Below, in pieces: positions 3,163 through 17,859 of a stretch of 23,402 bases of DNA. The position numbers were made by a program, and so were the translations under genes. The stretch is from assembly GCA_026770575.1 (NCBI GenBank), contig MU657786.1, forward strand, positions 1 to 23,402, written 5' to 3'. The notes beneath the pieces are model-generated. The model did no database searches. It was not told where the DNA came from and saw only the letters and a program-made list of their open reading frames with translations. Origin of the DNA: Pelagophyceae sp. CCMP2097 (taxonomy: Eukaryota > Sar > Pelagophyceae). Position 1 is the stretch's first letter, and every line of letters starts with the position of its first letter.

Positions 3163-3842
3163 ATAGACAGCTTCATTTTTTTCAAGCAGCTTTTTCAAGC
3201 TGCTTTAAAGCTGCTTTAAAGTCTGCATTTGCGTGTAAAGCTGCTTGAAAGTATCTACTTTTCAAGCTGCGCTTTTAAAGTAGCAGCTTTAGAACAGCTT
3301 CCAAGCTGCTTTAAAAGCGCGGAAGTGCTTTAAAGCGCGGGAAGAGTTCGTTGGATGAGCGTTGAGCGAACGTTAGATGAGCGTTAACCCGGCGCGGGCG
3401 CCCGGCGCGGGCGCGGCGCGGGCGCGCCGCGCGGGTGCGCCGCGCGGAGGGGGCGGGGCGCGGCCTCTGGCGGGCGGGGCGGCGCCGATTGTGCCCGCGC
3501 CTCCGTCGAGGCGCGGGCCGGTCGCGGGGCCGACGTGCCCCGCCCCGCGCGCCATCTCACCTGGGTGACCGAAGGAAGGCGCCCTTGACGCCGCTTCGCG
3601 CTCACGTTGAAGCGACAAAAGATATGTTGAAAAAGTAGCTTGAAAAGTAGCTTGAAAAAAGTGAACTTGTCTAATTCCATCATCGAGTCTGAAGGATCTG
3701 AGCGCGCTGGGCGCATCGGCGTCAGAAGGAGATGCGCATAGCACAGTCGGCTTGGTTCTTGCTCGTTAAAGCGTTTTTGGCGACGTTATGGAAAGTGCGA
3801 GGTCAGCTTGAAGGTAGCTTGAAAAAAGTAAAGCTGCCTAAC
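3163..3842 (+). repeat. Left arm of ~3-kb foldback structure
   Basis: This arm starts TAGACAGCTTC and is rich in AGCTT/AAGCTGC motifs (3180-3350). It has a very GC-rich core (about 3380-3560) and a unique-looking inner part (about 3660-3800). All three parts recur as reverse complement in 4287-6194, interrupted there by two insertions. No coding sequence is recognisable; open frames here arise from the GC-rich core. Confidence 0.85.
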
Positions 3843-3844
3843 TA

Positions 3845-4284
3845 GGCTGGTAGTTAGTTACCCGGGGTTTTACCGGGAAGGAACGTAATTACTCGGTATT
3901 ACTGATCGTGGCAGTAATATGCAGTAATATCGCCAAAAAAAATGGTTACTGCTCCAAAAAAATCTTCTTTAGGGCGTAAGAGAGCACTCTACGTGCCCTC
4001 TGGGCGACTAGGAGTCTAGCACGCCACTCGGCCGAGCATTTGATTTTTTTTTGTTGGTCGGCGCGAATGTCGGCGATCATGTCGTGCAGGCCCTCGTTTT
4101 CGCCAAAGTCGAGTGGAATTCACAGCCAGTCGTTCAAAAGTTGGGGAGAAGCAAAGTCGTTTTCGCACTTGCCGAGTAATATGGACCGCAGCGCGCCGCG
4201 CGCTGGATTTTTGGCTTGCGGAGTAACGCAATTACCTCGGATTTCTTTACCTCAGAGTAATCAGTAACCGAGTAATTACCAGCC
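3845..4284. mobile_element. 440-bp TIR element at the centre of the foldback structure
   Basis: The ends are GGCTGGTAGTTA (3845) and the complement of GGCTGGTAATTA (to 4284), flanked by TA on both sides (3843-3844, 4285-4286). The interior carries several short GTAATTAC/CGGTAATAC motifs and encodes no transposase. TA flanks would fit a Tc1/mariner-like target, but two bases are weak evidence. It separates the arms of the surrounding palindrome. Confidence 0.65.
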
Positions 4285-4457
4285 TAGCTGTCTAATAGCA
4301 CTTTGTATAACGTCGCCTAAAACGCTTTAACGAGCAAGAACCAAGCCGACTGTGCTATGCGCATCTCCTGCTGACGCCGATGCGCCCAGCGCGCTCAGAT
4401 CCTTCAGACTCGATGATGGAATTAGACAAGGTTCACTTTTTTCAAGCTACTTTTCAA

Positions 4458-8123: not shown

Positions 8124-8164
8124 GCCGCGTCGGTGGCGCTCTCTTTGCCTCCGGCGAGGCTCTT

Positions 8165-8210
8165 CGCCTCCGGCTCCGACCGCCTCGAGGCCTCCGGCTC
8201 CGACCGCCTC
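8165..8210 (+). repeat. 21-bp direct repeat before the retropepsin start
   Basis: GCCTCCGGCTCCGACCGCCTC occurs at 8165-8185 and again at 8190-8210, just upstream of the ATG at 8217. The frame is open through it (SGSDRL twice), so it could be translated if an upstream start were used. Confidence 0.8.
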
Positions 8211-8216
8211 TTTGTC

Positions 8217-8987
8217 ATGGGCGCCGGCGCGTCGCAGGAGATTGAGGCTGCGGAGCTCCAAGAATGCTTCCGCGCGTTCAACGAGGCAAGCGACCTTTCC
8301 GCTGACGCGTTCGAGGCTTTAGTCGCGACGCACGCGCCCACGGTCTACGGCCGCGCGCAGCAGACGGGCGAGGCCGCCGCGGCGGCGGCGTCGCTCCGGC
8401 AGCAGTTTGCGACGGCGCAGGCGAAGCTGGCGGCGCGCGAAGCGGCAAAGGTGCACCTCGAGGCCGGCGCCGCCGCCGCGGCTTCGGCGGCGCAGGAGCG
8501 GGCGATGCTGCTGCGGCAGCAGCACTCGTGGGCGGCGGATCAACCGGCAAATCTGCAAAGAGGATTGGTGCACGGTATGCTGGCATCTCATTCCGTTCGT
8601 CTTTTGACGTTCCAAATCGGCGGGGAATCCGTCGTCGCCATTGTCGACACGGGCGCGGAGCGGTCCGCTTTGTCGCCGGCGGCGGCGAAGCGCTGCGGGC
8701 TTGAGCATTTGTTGGACCCGTCATTTTCAAGGACAGTGAAAGGTATCGGCTCCGCCGTCGGTTTCGGCCGAGTGCACTACTGCTGCATCGCCATCGCGTC
8801 GGTCGACTTCCACGCCGCGTTCGACGTCTTCACCTGGCCCGAAGACGTCCGCTTCGAGGGGATAATCGGGTTGGACATGCTTGTTAAAGCCAGCGCTATC
8901 GTCGACGTCGCCGCGTCCGAGCTCACGCTCACGAGCCCCGAAGGCCAGCAAGTCGCCGTCGCGCTCCGAGGCGAGACCGAGCCCTGA
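8217..8987 (+). CDS. DDI1-like retropepsin-type aspartic protease
   Basis: 256 aa from the first ATG. The C-terminal half is a retroviral-protease-type fold of the DDI1 family: beta-strand then active-site IVDTGAERSA (Asp144), the KRCGL motif at 158-162, a GxG flap-like region (KGIGSA, 175-180), a GRVHYC strand, and the conserved IIGLDML at 216-222. Family members act as homodimeric aspartyl proteases in ubiquitin-linked turnover. The usual DDI1 N-terminal ubiquitin-like domain is absent. Instead the protein starts MGAGAS, an N-myristoylation consensus (Gly2, Ser6), followed by an Ala-rich helical, probably coiled-coil region (about 50-105). This suggests a membrane-tethered protease. The GTG-started extension upstream (8133) only adds the 21-bp repeat, so I prefer 8217. 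A retroelement origin is unlikely: no reverse transcriptase or integrase is nearby. Confidence 0.85.
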   Translation: MGAGASQEIEAAELQECFRAFNEASDLSADAFEALVATHAPTVYGRAQQTGEAAAAAASLRQQFATAQAKLAAREAAKVHLEAGAAAAASAAQERAMLLRQQHSWAADQPANLQRGLVHGMLASHSVRLLTFQIGGESVVAIVDTGAERSALSPAAAKRCGLEHLLDPSFSRTVKGIGSAVGFGRVHYCCIAIASVDFHAAFDVFTWPEDVRFEGIIGLDMLVKASAIVDVAASELTLTSPEGQQVAVALRGETEP

Positions 8988-12366: not shown

Positions 12367-12585
12367 CCGGTCGGTTTTAGACAGCACCGATGTCTGCCGG
12401 CTGGTATATTCTTCCGGCGGCTCAGTTCGAGGGCGGGCGGGCCTTGTTATCGCACGTCGAGTCGTTTGATGGCTGGCTAGGCATACCAGCATATTGTGGG
12501 CCGGCGGACGGCGTGGCCGATGTTTGGGTTGGAAGTGGGGCGCGGTGGAGAGGAGGAAGTAGTGCCCGCCGCGGTGCAGGTCGAG
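12367..12585 (+). repeat. 219-bp direct duplication, copy 2
   Basis: About 97% identical to 11079-11297. Here the plus frame runs on without a stop into the kelch coding region, whereas copy 1 ends in a TGA after about 65 codons. This makes copy 2 a possible 5' exon or simply a chance open frame. Confidence 0.9.
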
Positions 12586-13391
12586 GCCGGGCGCCAGGTC
12601 CAGGAAGAACATGTCAACGATGGTCCCAGGCTGTAGCTTCAAAGACGACGAAAGTGCTCGACACGCAGACGATGGCCTTTACAGCTGGGCCGGACATGCT
12701 CACGACGCGATATGGATGTGCAGCCGTCCATCTCGACGCAGATCGGGTGCTGGTTGTGGGTGGAACGGGTGCCGACAACGAAGTTTTAAACACGACGGAG
12801 ATCTTCCACCTCTCGACGCGCACGTTCGCGCCGGCACCAAACATGCAATCGCCACGAACACATTGTGCTGTCGTCGCACTCGACGCTCGCAGGATCCTCG
12901 TCGCGGGCGGCTATAATGGCGCGTCTGAACTGTCGAGCACGGAAATCCCCAGCCTCGACACGATGGCCTTTGCGCCGGGGCCCGCCATGGCCACTCCACG
13001 CGACGGATGCGCGGCCGTCGCGCTCGACGAGCACCGCGTTATGGTGGCTGGTGGTGAATCAGATACAAAGCATTTGAATACAACGGAGATCCTCGACGTC
13101 CGGACCATGTCGTTCGCGCCCGGTCCGTCGATGAGCTCGGAACGCGATGGATGCGCGGCCGTGTCTGTCGACGCGCAGCACGTCCTCGTCATCGGCGGGC
13201 AGGACTTGTCAGGCACGGCGTTGGCCACGACGGAGCTCCTCGACGTGGCGACGATGGCTTTCGCACCCGGGCCGACGATGCAGAACGAGCGCGGTCGATG
13301 CGTCGCCAGTCGGCTCGACGCCGCGGACGGTCAGCCGCGCATCCTCGTGCTGGGGGGGGACATTCACAGCCCCACATTTGAAAAATCTTAG
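12390..13391 (+). CDS. Kelch-repeat protein with in-frame TAG at its end
   Basis: The kelch part starts near 12650. Four full ~48-residue blades and a partial fifth follow, each of the form F-x-PGP-x-M......R..CAAV.LD...VLV.GG......L.TTEI. Kelch blades build a beta-propeller for protein binding. The N-terminal ~85 residues come from the 219-bp duplicated segment and are not kelch-like; the true start is uncertain and may be a spliced exon beyond the gap. The frame ends at TAG 13389-13391. The next in-frame codons read LLAVEAKVRLAAP to a TGA at 13431, and alignment with earlier blades (ELLDVATMAFAPGP) places the TAG where Glu is expected, suggesting GAG to TAG. The preceding BTB segment may be a related or former part. 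Confidence 0.75.
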   Translation: MSAGWYILPAAQFEGGRALLSHVESFDGWLGIPAYCGPADGVADVWVGSGARWRGGSSARRGAGRGRAPGPGRTCQRWSQAVASKTTKVLDTQTMAFTAGPDMLTTRYGCAAVHLDADRVLVVGGTGADNEVLNTTEIFHLSTRTFAPAPNMQSPRTHCAVVALDARRILVAGGYNGASELSSTEIPSLDTMAFAPGPAMATPRDGCAAVALDEHRVMVAGGESDTKHLNTTEILDVRTMSFAPGPSMSSERDGCAAVSVDAQHVLVIGGQDLSGTALATTELLDVATMAFAPGPTMQNERGRCVASRLDAADGQPRILVLGGDIHSPTFEKS

Positions 13392-14020: not shown

Positions 14021-14378
14021 GTGTCGCGGCGAGGCCTGGTCCCTATAGTCGCCTGGACGGCGTCTGCAATATCTGCACCCGCTTGCGCGGAAAGCGTGGT
14101 CCCGTGCCTCGTGCAAGAGTGCGGCCCGGAGGTCGCGGCGTGTATCGGAAACGCGGACTGTTTCGGCGCGGCGGCGTGCCTCGCGCGCTGCGGCGGCGAG
14201 GGGCCGTGTCAAGTCCGCTGCCAGCAGCTTTTCGAAAGCGCCGCCCTCGACGACTTTAACGCCTGCGCGGTGGACAAGTGCATCCCGACGCGCGTCGATG
14301 TGTCGTTCCTGGAGCCGCCAAGATCGAGCGTACTGAAAACGTTTGACGTTTCCACGCTCGAGGGCAAGTGGTTCATCA
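14021..14378 (+). CDS. Violaxanthin de-epoxidase-like protein, N-terminal part (interrupted)
   Basis: VDE works in the thylakoid lumen, removing epoxide groups from violaxanthin or diadinoxanthin in photoprotection. This part has a hydrophobic AWTASAISAPACAE stretch like a lumenal cleavage site, then the Cys-rich VDE domain with 11 cysteines (pattern VPCLVQECGPEVAACIGNAD, CARC..CQVRC, NACAVDKCIP). It continues to the strand that opens the lipocalin domain (FDVSTLEGKWFI). The frame then runs into an inserted element and stops at 14404. The start is a GTG in an open frame; a bipartite plastid presequence is expected upstream but not found. The rest of the protein resumes at 15145. VDE proper and VDE-like/related proteins are not distinguishable here with certainty. 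Confidence 0.85.
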
Positions 14379-14785
14379 CAAGGCACAACGACAGCTATGC
14401 ATAGGCACGATCGATATTTGCCGGGATTTTTGCCGAAACGATAATCGGCGATATTTCATCGACATTTGCCGGGATTACCGGGAAAATCGTCGTTATTTGC
14501 TAGACTCAACACAATCTGACGCTCGCAAATACCATGTTTTTCGTCATTTCGCAATTTAATATCTCAATAAAGGCATATTTAAGATTTAATTAAATCTTAT
14601 TTACGTTTGTTTTAACATATTTCTCAATAAAGATTTTATAAAATCTTAATTTTGCCTTTATTGAGATATTTAAGTGTAAAAAAGTCGATAATCGTCGATT
14701 CCCAGTCGATATTTGCCGGGATTCCTGTCGATAGTATCGACCGATATTTGCCGGAAAAGCCATCCATAGGCGTCGTTGTGCCTTG
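14379..14785. mobile_element. 407-bp TIR element in the VDE-like gene, 8-bp target duplication
   Basis: Perfect 14-bp TIRs (CAAGGCACAACGAC at 14379 and its complement ending 14785) are flanked by GTTCATCA on both sides (14371-14378, 14786-14793). The element is AT-rich, unlike the gene. It repeats GATATTTGCCGGGAT-type motifs near both ends and has an internal 18-bp inverted repeat (14558-14575, 14653-14670). There is no coding sequence. An 8-bp duplication fits hAT-like transposition and is also a feature discussed for algal introner elements; the superfamily is not proven. Confidence 0.9.
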
Positions 14786-14797
14786 GTTCATCAGCGC

Positions 14798-15144
14798 TAA
14801 GGATTTCCCGTAGTATCGTTTCAAATCCCTTCAAATGTCGTTTGCCAATATCGTCATGATGTCGAGGTTTCCACTTCAAATGTCGTCGGAAAGATCGGAA
14901 TTATCTCCAAATAAAGTACATGCAAAAGCCGCAAAAGCCGCAAATGTCGTCGGAATCTCCCTTAAAGTCCCCTGATGACGGATTAACCCCCGAGTTAAAA
15001 TTCTGATGCCTTGGTTTGAGGCTCCAGAGCGGCCCATGTCGGCCGTCTATCGTCATATTCACTTCAATTGTCGTCGGAAAGATCCCCCTCTTGGAAACAC
15101 TTCAAATGTCGAAAAAATATATCTAATCCTACGGGAAATCCTTA
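14798..15144. mobile_element. 347-bp TIR element directly after the first, 8-bp target duplication
   Basis: Perfect 16-bp TIRs (TAAGGATTTCCCGTAG at 14798-14813 and its complement at 15129-15144) are flanked by ATCAGCGC on both sides (14790-14797, 15145-15152). Its left target duplication overlaps the right target duplication of the first element, so both hit the same few codons. A 26-bp internal direct repeat (ACTTCAAATGTCGTCGGAAA-like) occurs at about 14872 and 15061. No coding sequence. Confidence 0.9.
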
Positions 15145-15672
15145 ATCAGCGCCGGCTTAAACCCAATGTTCGACTCCTTCCCCTGCCAGATCCACATCTT
15201 CCAAAGAGTCGCGCCGGGGCAGCTGGTAGACCGCCTCAGCTACCGAGTCGTCGACCCGGACGGCGCGGTCGTGACGCGCGCCGAAGCACAGAGGCTCCAG
15301 CAGGACGCGGACGACGCGGGCGTCCTTTATGCAGAGACTGGGCGCGGCAAGCTGTACCAGCGTGAAGTGTGCTACATCCTCGATGCTTCCAGGGGCATCA
15401 AAAACGTCCCGGACTTTGCTCTCGTCTACTACAGAGGCTCCAACGGCGCCTGGGTCGGTTTTGGAGGCGCCGTGCTCTATACAAAATCGCGACAGTCCCC
15501 TGAGGTCCTCCGGCAACGCGTCACGAGCGCGTGCAAACGCGCGCGCCTCGACTTTGACACCTTTACAATCATCGACAACTCGCGCGCGCCGCTGCCCGAA
15601 CCGCCGCAAGCCAGCGTCGGAAAGCGCTACCTGAGGTCGCTCCTTCCGTGGGTGCCCACGTGGCGAATGTGA
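15145..15672 (+). CDS. Violaxanthin de-epoxidase-like protein, lipocalin (catalytic) part
   Basis: This resumes the gene exactly where it broke: ATC AGC GCC GGC reads ISAGLNPMFDSFPCQ, the expected continuation of GKWF in VDE. The lipocalin barrel follows, with VYYRGSNGAWVGFGGAVLYT as the clearest family motif (residues about 95-115 of this part). Plant VDE has Asp-Gly-Tyr where this has Val-Gly-Phe. The long Glu-rich C-terminal tail of classical VDE is missing: the protein ends after a short Pro/basic tail (LPEPP...WRM), so it is more like a VDE-like or VDE-related protein. On its own this half would lack the Cys-rich domain and targeting sequence. It is functional only if the two elements are spliced out. 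Confidence 0.85.
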   Translation: MSAGLNPMFDSFPCQIHIFQRVAPGQLVDRLSYRVVDPDGAVVTRAEAQRLQQDADDAGVLYAETGRGKLYQREVCYILDASRGIKNVPDFALVYYRGSNGAWVGFGGAVLYTKSRQSPEVLRQRVTSACKRARLDFDTFTIIDNSRAPLPEPPQASVGKRYLRSLLPWVPTWRM

Positions 15673-15905
15673 GACCCATTACGTATCCATCCACGTTCGC
15701 CTCCGAGGCGGCCTCGCCTGCTGGCCGTCGCACTCCCGGGTCTCGTAATGTACCATCCACGTTCGAAGGAAGGCGCCCTCGTCTGCCGGCAGTATTACTG
15801 AGTTGCGTCCCCATATTGCTATGATGAAGACGTCTGCGGCAGTCGTCTCGTCGCCCGGCGGCGTCGCGGCGCGAAACGCCCCGGCTATGAGCCCCGCGGA
15901 GCGCC

Positions 15906-17859
15906 TCACTTGGAAGTCTTCCTGAGCGACCGGAGCGTGGCCAGGTCGATGGTCGGCTCCGGCTCCGCGACGAGGACCTTGGGCGCGACGACCGCCGGCG
16001 CGGCCGCAATGGGCGCGGCCACGGGCGCGGGCGCGGCCACGGGCGCGGGCGCGGCCACGGGCGCGGGCGCGGCCACGGGCGCGGGCGCGGCCATGGGCGC
16101 GGCCACGGGCGCGGGGGCCGGGGCCGCGACGACGGCGGCCTTCTCGGCGGCAGCGGCGGTGGCAGCGGCCTTCTCGGCGGCGGCCTTGGCCTCGACAGCG
16201 GCCTTCTCGGCGACGGCCTTCTCGGCGGCAGCGGCCTTCTCGGCAGAAGCCTTGGCCTCGGCCTCGGCGGCCTTCTCGGCGGCAGCGGTCTTCTCGGCAG
16301 AGGCCTTGGCCTCGGCGGCCTTGGCATCCGCAGCCTTCGTCTCCGCAGCCTTGGCCTCGGCGGCCTTGGCATCAGCAGCCTTGGTCTCCGTGGACTTGGC
16401 GGCCTCAGCCTTTGCCGCGGCGGCCTCGGCCTTGGCCTCAGCAGCCTTGGTCTCCACGGCCTTGGCCTCGGCGGCCTTTGCGGCCTTGGCCTCGGCCTTG
16501 ACCTCTGCGGCCTTTGCCGCTTCGGCCTTTGCGGCGTCGGCCTTGGCCGTGACAGCGGCGGCGGCGTCGGCCTTGGCCGCGGCGGCGGCGTCGGCCTTGG
16601 CCGCCGAGACCTTGGCCGCGAGCGCGGCCGTCGACTCTTTCTCCGCGGCCTTGGCCGTCGCGGCGGCGGCCTTGGCCGCCTCGGCCTCCGTAGCCTTTTC
16701 CGCCTTGGCGGCCTTGGCGGCGGCGGCGGCGTCGTTGGCGGCGGCCTTCTTGTCCGTCTTAGCGGTGTCGGCCTTGGCCTCCTGCTTCTTGCCGCCGAAA
16801 AGAGCGGTGCCCTTGGCCTTGACCTTGGGTGCCTTGGGCGCTTCCTGCACGACGACGGCGCCCGGCACCGGCACGCCCGGGACCGGCACGCCCGCGATCT
16901 GCACGCCGAAGCCGCCGACGACGGCGGCGAGGATGCCAGCCAGGAGCACCGACGATTTGGAGTCCGAAGGCGAGAGTTCGGACTTGAACTGAGGCGAAGG
17001 AGTCGCGTCGGCCTGGGCCTGCTCGCGGGCCTTCTTCGTCTTCTCCAAAACGCCGCGCACGAGTCCGAGGCCGATAAACGGCACGGCCACAAAGGGCACG
17101 GTCCCGACGACGGTTCCGACGACTTCGCCGATGATCGAGTCTCCCTTGGGTGCGGAAGGCGCCGAAAACGCAGGCAGCGAAGGCGCCGAGAACGAAGGCA
17201 GCGACGGCGCCGAGAACGACGGCAGCTTAAAGTCCTCCTTCGGCGAGTCGTCCTTCTTCGCCGCCACGGGCTTTGGCGCCGGCACCTACGGGTATGTTTC
17301 GGAGGGTCTCCGCCACCGCTCTGCACTCACCGGCTTCTCGGCGACGACCTTGGCCGGGCGCGTGTTGGAGCCGCCGAAGAGGCCCTTGGGCTTCGCCTCC
17401 TGTGCGAGGAAGCTTTGAGAAGGCATGCGAGGCCGCTGCGATGTCAAAGCCCAAACTGCTCCGTCGTCGTTTGCAAACAGAAATGGAACACCCCCGCAGC
17501 AATCCGATGCACTGATCCCCGAGGCATCCCCGGCTCCGTATCGTCTCGAAGCATGGCGTGAGGACGCTGCCACGGTACGGCGGCCGCCGCCTCTTCAACC
17601 TACGTGCATCGCGCTCGACGCAGTGCCAATGGCGCTGCAACGATTTTGGAAGTCAAGGTCCGGATTTGCCGGTACCTTGTCGTCGAGCGCCTTGAGCGCG
17701 CCGAGCCTGCGTGGGCAAGTTTGCGTTAGGATTCACACTTAGGATTTGATGAACCACCACCGTCCCAGACAGTCGCAAGACGCACCCGGCGGGCTTGGCC
17801 TGGGGCAGCACGAACGCCGAACCGAGGCCCAGCGCGAGGGCAACGATCACTGAACGCAT
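15906..17859 (-). CDS. Plastid-targeted Ala/Lys/Glu-rich membrane protein (three exons inferred)
   Basis: Exon 1, 17859-17786, encodes a signal peptide (MRSVIVALALGLGSAFVLPQ) with Ser-Ala-Phe at the cleavage site, the heterokont mark of plastid import across four membranes. Exon 2, 17412-17331 (FLAQEAKPKGLFGGSN...); exon 3, 17285-15906. The intron 17330-17286 (GTGAGT...TAG) is well supported because the frame otherwise stops. The first intron (17785-17413) is my best phase-matched choice; an acceptor giving an exon start at 17399 is an alternative. The mature part has repeated LPSFSAPS, two hydrophobic segments (about IIGEVVGTVVGTVPFVAVPF and SVLLAGILAAVVGGFG), a long Ala/Lys/Glu-rich helical region (probably coiled coil), then an APVAAP repeat. 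I do not recognise the family. A plastid-envelope or thylakoid scaffold is plausible. Confidence 0.7.
16010..16110 (-). repeat. 18-bp tandem repeat encoding Ala-Pro-Val-Ala-Ala-Pro
   Basis: GCGCGGCCACGGGCGCGG is repeated about five times in frame near the C-terminus of the Ala-rich plastid protein. Less regular GCGGCCTTCTCGGCGGCA-type repeats extend to about 16320. Confidence 0.9.
17286..17330 (-). other. 45-nt intron
   Basis: GTGAGTGCAG...ACCCGTAG on the minus strand, phase 0. It ends in an in-frame TAG, so reading through it would truncate the Ala-rich protein. Splicing joins EKP to VPAPKP in frame. Confidence 0.8.
17413..17785 (-). other. 373-nt intron (inferred)
   Basis: Donor GG|GTGCGT, the same type as in the Omp85-like gene; acceptor CTTCTCAAAG|C. 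It joins the signal-peptide exon to FLAQEAKPKG in frame. Confidence 0.55.

Follow-up and report, generated by a model that had tools for sequence, protein, structure and literature searches.

The closest described parallels to the locus reported here come from maize and from algae. Maize Ds1, a hAT element of ~400 bp, is intron-like and spliced from exons according to the titles of Dennis 1988, Wessler 1991 and Giroux 1994 (listed in the references of PMC3260210), and parts of PMC9860276 describe introners of Aureococcus with 8-bp target-site duplications (TSDs), as well as terminal inverted repeats (TIRs) for some algal introners. We analyzed contig MU657786.1 of Pelagophyceae sp. CCMP2097 (assembly GCA_026770575.1), a stretch of 23,402 nucleotides called the window below, in which a gene of the VDE family is split by two adjacent TIR-bearing elements, E1 and E2. 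Our best explanation, to which we give a probability of about 0.72, is a recent double insertion of miniature inverted-repeat transposable elements (MITEs), E2 of hAT and E1 of hAT-like type, that breaks or cripples a VDL-type gene. The locus resembles exonic, non-autonomous hAT (Ac/Ds) elements such as maize Ds1 in element size (~400 bp), short TIRs, 8-bp TSDs and exon insertion, and perhaps also in splicing from TSD or terminal sites, which here is candidate splicing read from sequence alone; it differs in its TIR sequences, in that a link to a transposase exists for E2 only, and in having two families in one site.

The split gene lies on the plus strand, as do the coordinates of all features between its two pieces. 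The 5′ exon piece (14021–14378) encodes the Cys-rich domain and the start of the lipocalin domain, ends in GKWFI and matches positions 3–102 of the Pfam VDE profile (E 4e-25), while the 3′ exon piece (15153–15672) encodes the remaining lipocalin domain through the stop codon at 15670–15672 and matches positions 102–242 (E 6e-34), so that the two pieces abut at profile position 102. E1 is a 407-bp MITE (14379–14785) with 14-bp perfect TIRs (CAAGGCACAACGAC) and an internal inverted repeat, flanked by the TSD GTTCATCA at 14371–14378 and 14786–14793; E2 is a 347-bp hAT-type MITE (14798–15144) with 16-bp perfect TIRs (TAAGGATTTCCCGTAG), flanked by the TSD ATCAGCGC at 14790–14797 and 15145–15152. 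The right TSD of E1 and the left TSD of E2 overlap by ATCA. Removing both elements, each with one TSD copy, leaves 882 nt in a single frame from 14021 to the stop ending at 15672. The element coordinates, perfect TIRs and 8-bp TSDs given in an earlier sequence-only reading of this DNA were thus exact to the base, and its claim that removal of both elements restores the frame is borne out by the 882-nt frame and by the contiguity of the exon pieces in the Pfam profile. Upstream of 14021 the frame stays open to 13949 and the extension contains no Met, so the true start of the gene likely lies in an upstream exon.

Such structures are not expected by chance: a 14-bp TIR pair with an 8-bp TSD should occur ~2e-6 times per window under uniform base composition, and 20 base shuffles of the window gave none, even at a 10-bp TIR. 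A scan of the window for 12-bp TIRs with 8-bp TSDs returned four pairs, namely E1, E2 and two others that we rejected, their apparent TSDs being palindromes within one long inverted repeat (3640–4457). The TSD starts of E1 and E2 are 4 bp apart and both targets fall within one 12-bp stretch; if the genome carries an assumed 80 to 500 young insertions, chance alone should give 0.001 to 0.05 pairs this close. The double hit may reflect a local insertion hot spot, or a relaxation of selection once one element had inserted; by reasoning, either order of insertion would give the same final sequence. A composite E1–E2 element was rejected, as no other retrieved locus carried both TIR types and five apparent cases proved to be overlapping cuts of this window. 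An assembly artefact is unlikely, since the TSDs and the reading frame agree on both sides; the assembly was built from short reads (AllPathsLG, as stated in part of PMC9756366).

Both elements belong to mobile families, a point the sequence-only reading had left to a genome search with the two TIRs, which found many further E1 and E2 copies, mostly with perfect TSDs. We examined 45 E1 loci, a subset of the genome copies, of which 34 had both ends visible; 31 of these 34 had a perfect 8-bp TSD (ninth base matching in 7 of 34), and the duplicated target sequence varied between sites for both families. Among the copies retrieved, 25 were full-length at 407 bp, and because 13 of these 25, including the window copy, are identical, E1 has undergone a recent burst. 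The E1 interior holds no open reading frame (ORF) of 100 aa. Longer relatives, which have TIRs of the E1 type and whose 8-bp TSDs are perfect, were found at L073 (849 bp), L074 (437 bp) and L084–L086 (769 bp); the 769-bp sister has mainly its ends in common with E1, and its two longest open stretches (182 and 124 aa) gave no Pfam match. E1 fits a hAT-like element by structure only (8-bp TSD, short TIRs), and a search for an autonomous E1 partner found none. One E1 copy (L057, 998–1013) is inserted in a target that itself resembles the E1 terminal repeat. Another (L068) lies upstream of an aldo-keto-reductase-like stretch (E 9.5e-5, just under the Pfam cut-off) and a third (L006) upstream of WD40 repeats; these last two copies may lie in the 5′ regions of genes.

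For E2, 30 loci were examined, again a subset of the genome copies, and 16 of the 18 with both ends visible had a perfect 8-bp TSD (ninth base matching in 7 of 18). Its main sister is 326 bp long, with 14 copies at 0–2 mismatches from their majority; the 347-bp form itself has two partial matches elsewhere, both 100% identical and adjoining runs of N. The genome contains nine matches to the hAT dimerisation domain PF05699, the best of which (C101:132491–132685, E 9e-7) sits inside a 1,124-bp element (C101, 131842–132965) bounded by exact E2 TIRs and by the TSD TCCATGGC on both sides. Positions 1–78 and 226–347 of E2 are 91% and 85% identical, respectively, to the ends of this element, whose PF05699 match contains a TGA. 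No two-ended element longer than 1,124 bp was visible at E2 TIR sites in the genome, single TIRs not having been followed up. Because its ends are held in common with an element carrying a hAT transposase fragment, E2 is classed, by sequence relationship, as an internally deleted, non-autonomous hAT relative.

The positions of the other copies bear on the general behavior of the two families. Each insertion site was closed and its left and right flanks were then scored for coding signal with a codon model trained on ~900 codons that included the window gene, so that the window gene's own score (17.7/15.6) is an in-sample value. Held-out exons were positive in 6 of 6 cases, some control-exon sides being weak (2.0, 2.1, 3.5). 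Once 1 of the 34 E1 and 2 of the 18 E2 rows had been dropped for N-rich or short flanks, and then the two sites of the window itself, 2 of the 47 remaining sites carried coding signal on both flanks, vs. 55 of 291 background points without the window locus (P = 0.011; 59 of 307 with it), the background points being mutually overlapping positions in the flanks of the same loci rather than random genome positions. A thinned background gave 2 of 47 vs. 23 of 150 (P = 0.047), a cut-off of −5 gave 5 of 47 vs. 85 of 291, and a cut-off of +5 gave 0 of 47 vs. 35 of 291. The two positive sites, one per family, were both marginal (L085, 0.8; L018, 0.7). E1 and E2 insertions are firmly not enriched in coding sequence and are likely depleted there. 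AG occurred within the TSD at 15 of 34 E1 and 7 of 18 E2 sites, and GT equally often, so there is no regular co-option of splice sites from TSDs. The two families behave as ordinary MITEs.

The sequence-only reading was right that the gene is VDE-like, as the VDE lipocalin domain PF07137 is found on both exon pieces and the protein matches the Arabidopsis VDE structure 3cqn (E 7e-36). When aligned to 3cqn, with the chain-to-residue offset counted by ourselves, the catalytic D177 is replaced by Glu (QREVCY vs. QDDWY) and Y198 is kept (VYYRG). Parts of PMC13181403 set out the roles of these residues, giving D177 to E as a mark of VDL proteins, but also of VDR proteins, and ten Cys in the N-terminal domain as a criterion for VDL. 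The window gene has 10 Cys in its Cys-rich domain and no Glu-rich tail, and so shares with the VDL proteins of chromalveolate algae (in parts of PMC7056318 and PMC13181403) the VDE lipocalin domain, the ten N-terminal Cys, the D177 to E change, Y198 and the missing tail; it differs from them at W179, which is an unusual Cys in the window gene. Its closest environmental relative apart from the deposited protein discussed below (P0145, 50% identity) has QREV in common with it and carries Trp at W179. On these sequence features the split gene is assigned to the VDL type, encoding a putative xanthophyll/pigment-pathway enzyme, and not to VDE proper; the label 'photoprotection gene' that it had been given therefore needs correcting. 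The catalytic residue of VDE proper is found instead in a gene on contig C3 (D177 kept, QDDWY), whose lipocalin part is in frame across two GT-AG introns. A further VDE-family gene, on contig C427, has motifs in common with haptophyte and diatom proteins. Our genome search (66.2 Mb in 638 contigs) found these three VDE-family genes and one fragment, on contig C41. In other algae, VDL1 makes neoxanthin, en route to fucoxanthin-type pigments (parts of PMC7056318 and PMC13181403).

Under the explanation that we favor, one exon would have taken up two independent and recent insertions of short non-autonomous DNA transposons, which belong to different families and each make an 8-bp TSD; a transposase acting in trans presumably mobilized both, and the window copy would no longer yield normal enzyme. 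The last step is proposed because read-through into E1 meets a stop codon at 14402–14404 and because we enumerated 12 single GT-AG introns that stay in frame, and all of them lose the Trp of the first lipocalin strand. All 22 sequences in our alignment, which we selected and which include the window gene, have that Trp. In agreement with the sequence-only reading, no GT-AG pair excises either element precisely, and no enumerated one- or two-intron solution with GT-AG or GC-AG sites gives the exact 265-aa product.

Several points weigh against this explanation. No transposase could be tied to E1, as none of the nine PF05699 matches lay between E1 TIR sites in a comparison by eye. Apart from the inserts the frame has no defects, which implies a gene that still works or did so until a short time ago. 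VDE-family genes are few and VDL1 has its role in neoxanthin synthesis, so loss of a VDL would be costly. In-frame introns that remove both elements with small changes do exist. The support from the transcript side is weak: protein searches returned no MMETSP or EukProt member for the window gene, although the C427 gene is represented there, but the C3 VDE was also missed in one search.

The alternative that best survives is compatible with the favored explanation: the insertion allele may be heterozygous, or one of two copies, with an intact gene elsewhere (on the other haplotype or behind the C41 fragment), in which case the broken copy would be nearly neutral. We regard this as possible, at odds of roughly one in three. 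The C41 fragment (L091, 3793–3922) is ~130 bp long, is 90–94% identical to the window gene, borders a run of N and reads continuously through the site (GGTTCATCAGCGC) with no insert; it is the uninterrupted state of the insertion site in a diverged paralogue. Copies may also be missing from the 66.2 Mb searched, the published assembly comprising 85.8 Mb in 1,716 scaffolds (according to part of PMC9756366). However, no VDE match was found on contig C41 beyond this one fragment, an orphan exon that may be a piece of pseudogene. A further point against an intact copy is a deposited NCBI protein from Pelagophyceae sp. CCMP2097 (P0001), whose record places it on a contig 27,048 bases long, vs. 23,402 for the window contig, and which is identical to the window gene outside the gap. 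The P0001 model, too, passes over the insertion site, and because an uninterrupted copy would need no such skip, the second copy would be interrupted too, whether by one insert or both, since by reasoning either would yield the same splice. The full assembly would thus hold another scaffold on which the gene is likewise interrupted, unless P0001 comes from a different assembly version.

The same protein bears on a second alternative, the chance origin of an intron of the kind known from maize Ds1, in which the double insert would be spliced out as one intron, giving a slightly altered and perhaps partly active enzyme. The donor would be the GT at 14371, in the left TSD of E1, or a GC at 14383, in the E1 TIR, and the acceptor the AG at 15148–15149, in the right TSD of E2. 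P0001 corresponds letter for letter to the GT-AG intron 14371–15149, with both splice sites inside TSDs, which is the single in-frame intron that the sequence-only reading had pointed out as losing the conserved Trp-Phe-Ile-Ser. This splice turns GKWFISAGL into GKCAGL. P0001, however, is a gene model and marked partial, the GT version loses the Trp common to all aligned sequences, and the model is probably wrong or its product non-functional. Two schemes of two GT-AG introns keep Trp-Phe (14371–14866, then 14882 or 14885 to 15149, leaving an exon of 15 or 18 nt), and the GC-AG intron 14383–15149 (AAG|GCACAA at the donor) gives GKWFITSAGL, in which every residue is kept and one Thr is added. 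In favor of such splicing, too, the Ds1 titles cited above document the splicing of hAT elements from exons; against it, both single-intron donors are, in our judgement, poor fits to the usual consensus, and the searches returned no match from MMETSP or EukProt for the gene. We therefore hold splicing of this kind to be unlikely, and its specific form as a composite intron at birth, which would join the GC donor in the E1 TIR to the AG in the E2 TSD and add a single Thr to the VDL protein, to be more doubtful still. If true, the composite intron would let the VDL protein keep pigment synthesis going.

The sequence-only reading had offered a knock-out and young introner-like elements as its two options; insertional disruption is now favored, with splicing at the window locus retaining the small share of probability just described, and the introner option is rejected for the two families at large. 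E1 and E2 do resemble the Aureococcus introners (as presented in parts of PMC9860276) in their pelagophyte host, 8-bp TSD, small size and possible in-frame codon addition, and the E1 TIR can supply a GC donor, but they differ in lacking coding enrichment, constant placement of splice sites relative to the target and exact removal, so it is very improbable that they are transposons specialized for splicing.

Other features of the window were also noted. Upstream of the VDL-type gene lies a Kelch-repeat ORF (12390–13391, plus strand), and at 8133–8987 (plus strand) there is an ORF for a gag/retroviral-type aspartyl protease, probably a piece of a retroelement. The inverted repeat at 3640–4457 has 144-nt arms that are 94% complementary, within ~820 bp overall, and a flanking duplication was looked for around it and not found. 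A strong minus-strand coding signal (15906–17285, at points 16200–16800) is arranged convergently with the VDL-type gene; the ORF enclosing it (15569–17326) has no Pfam match.

The locus offers a datable case in which two recently active MITE families have struck one short run of codons in a pigment-pathway gene of an Arctic pelagophyte. It also brings to light that the deposited model P0001 probably misrepresents the gene. The choice between a broken gene and a newborn intron could be resolved quickly, because RNA-seq exists for this strain (SRP284677–SRP284681, listed in part of PMC9133084), and the answer bears on how ordinary MITEs relate to introners within the pelagophytes.
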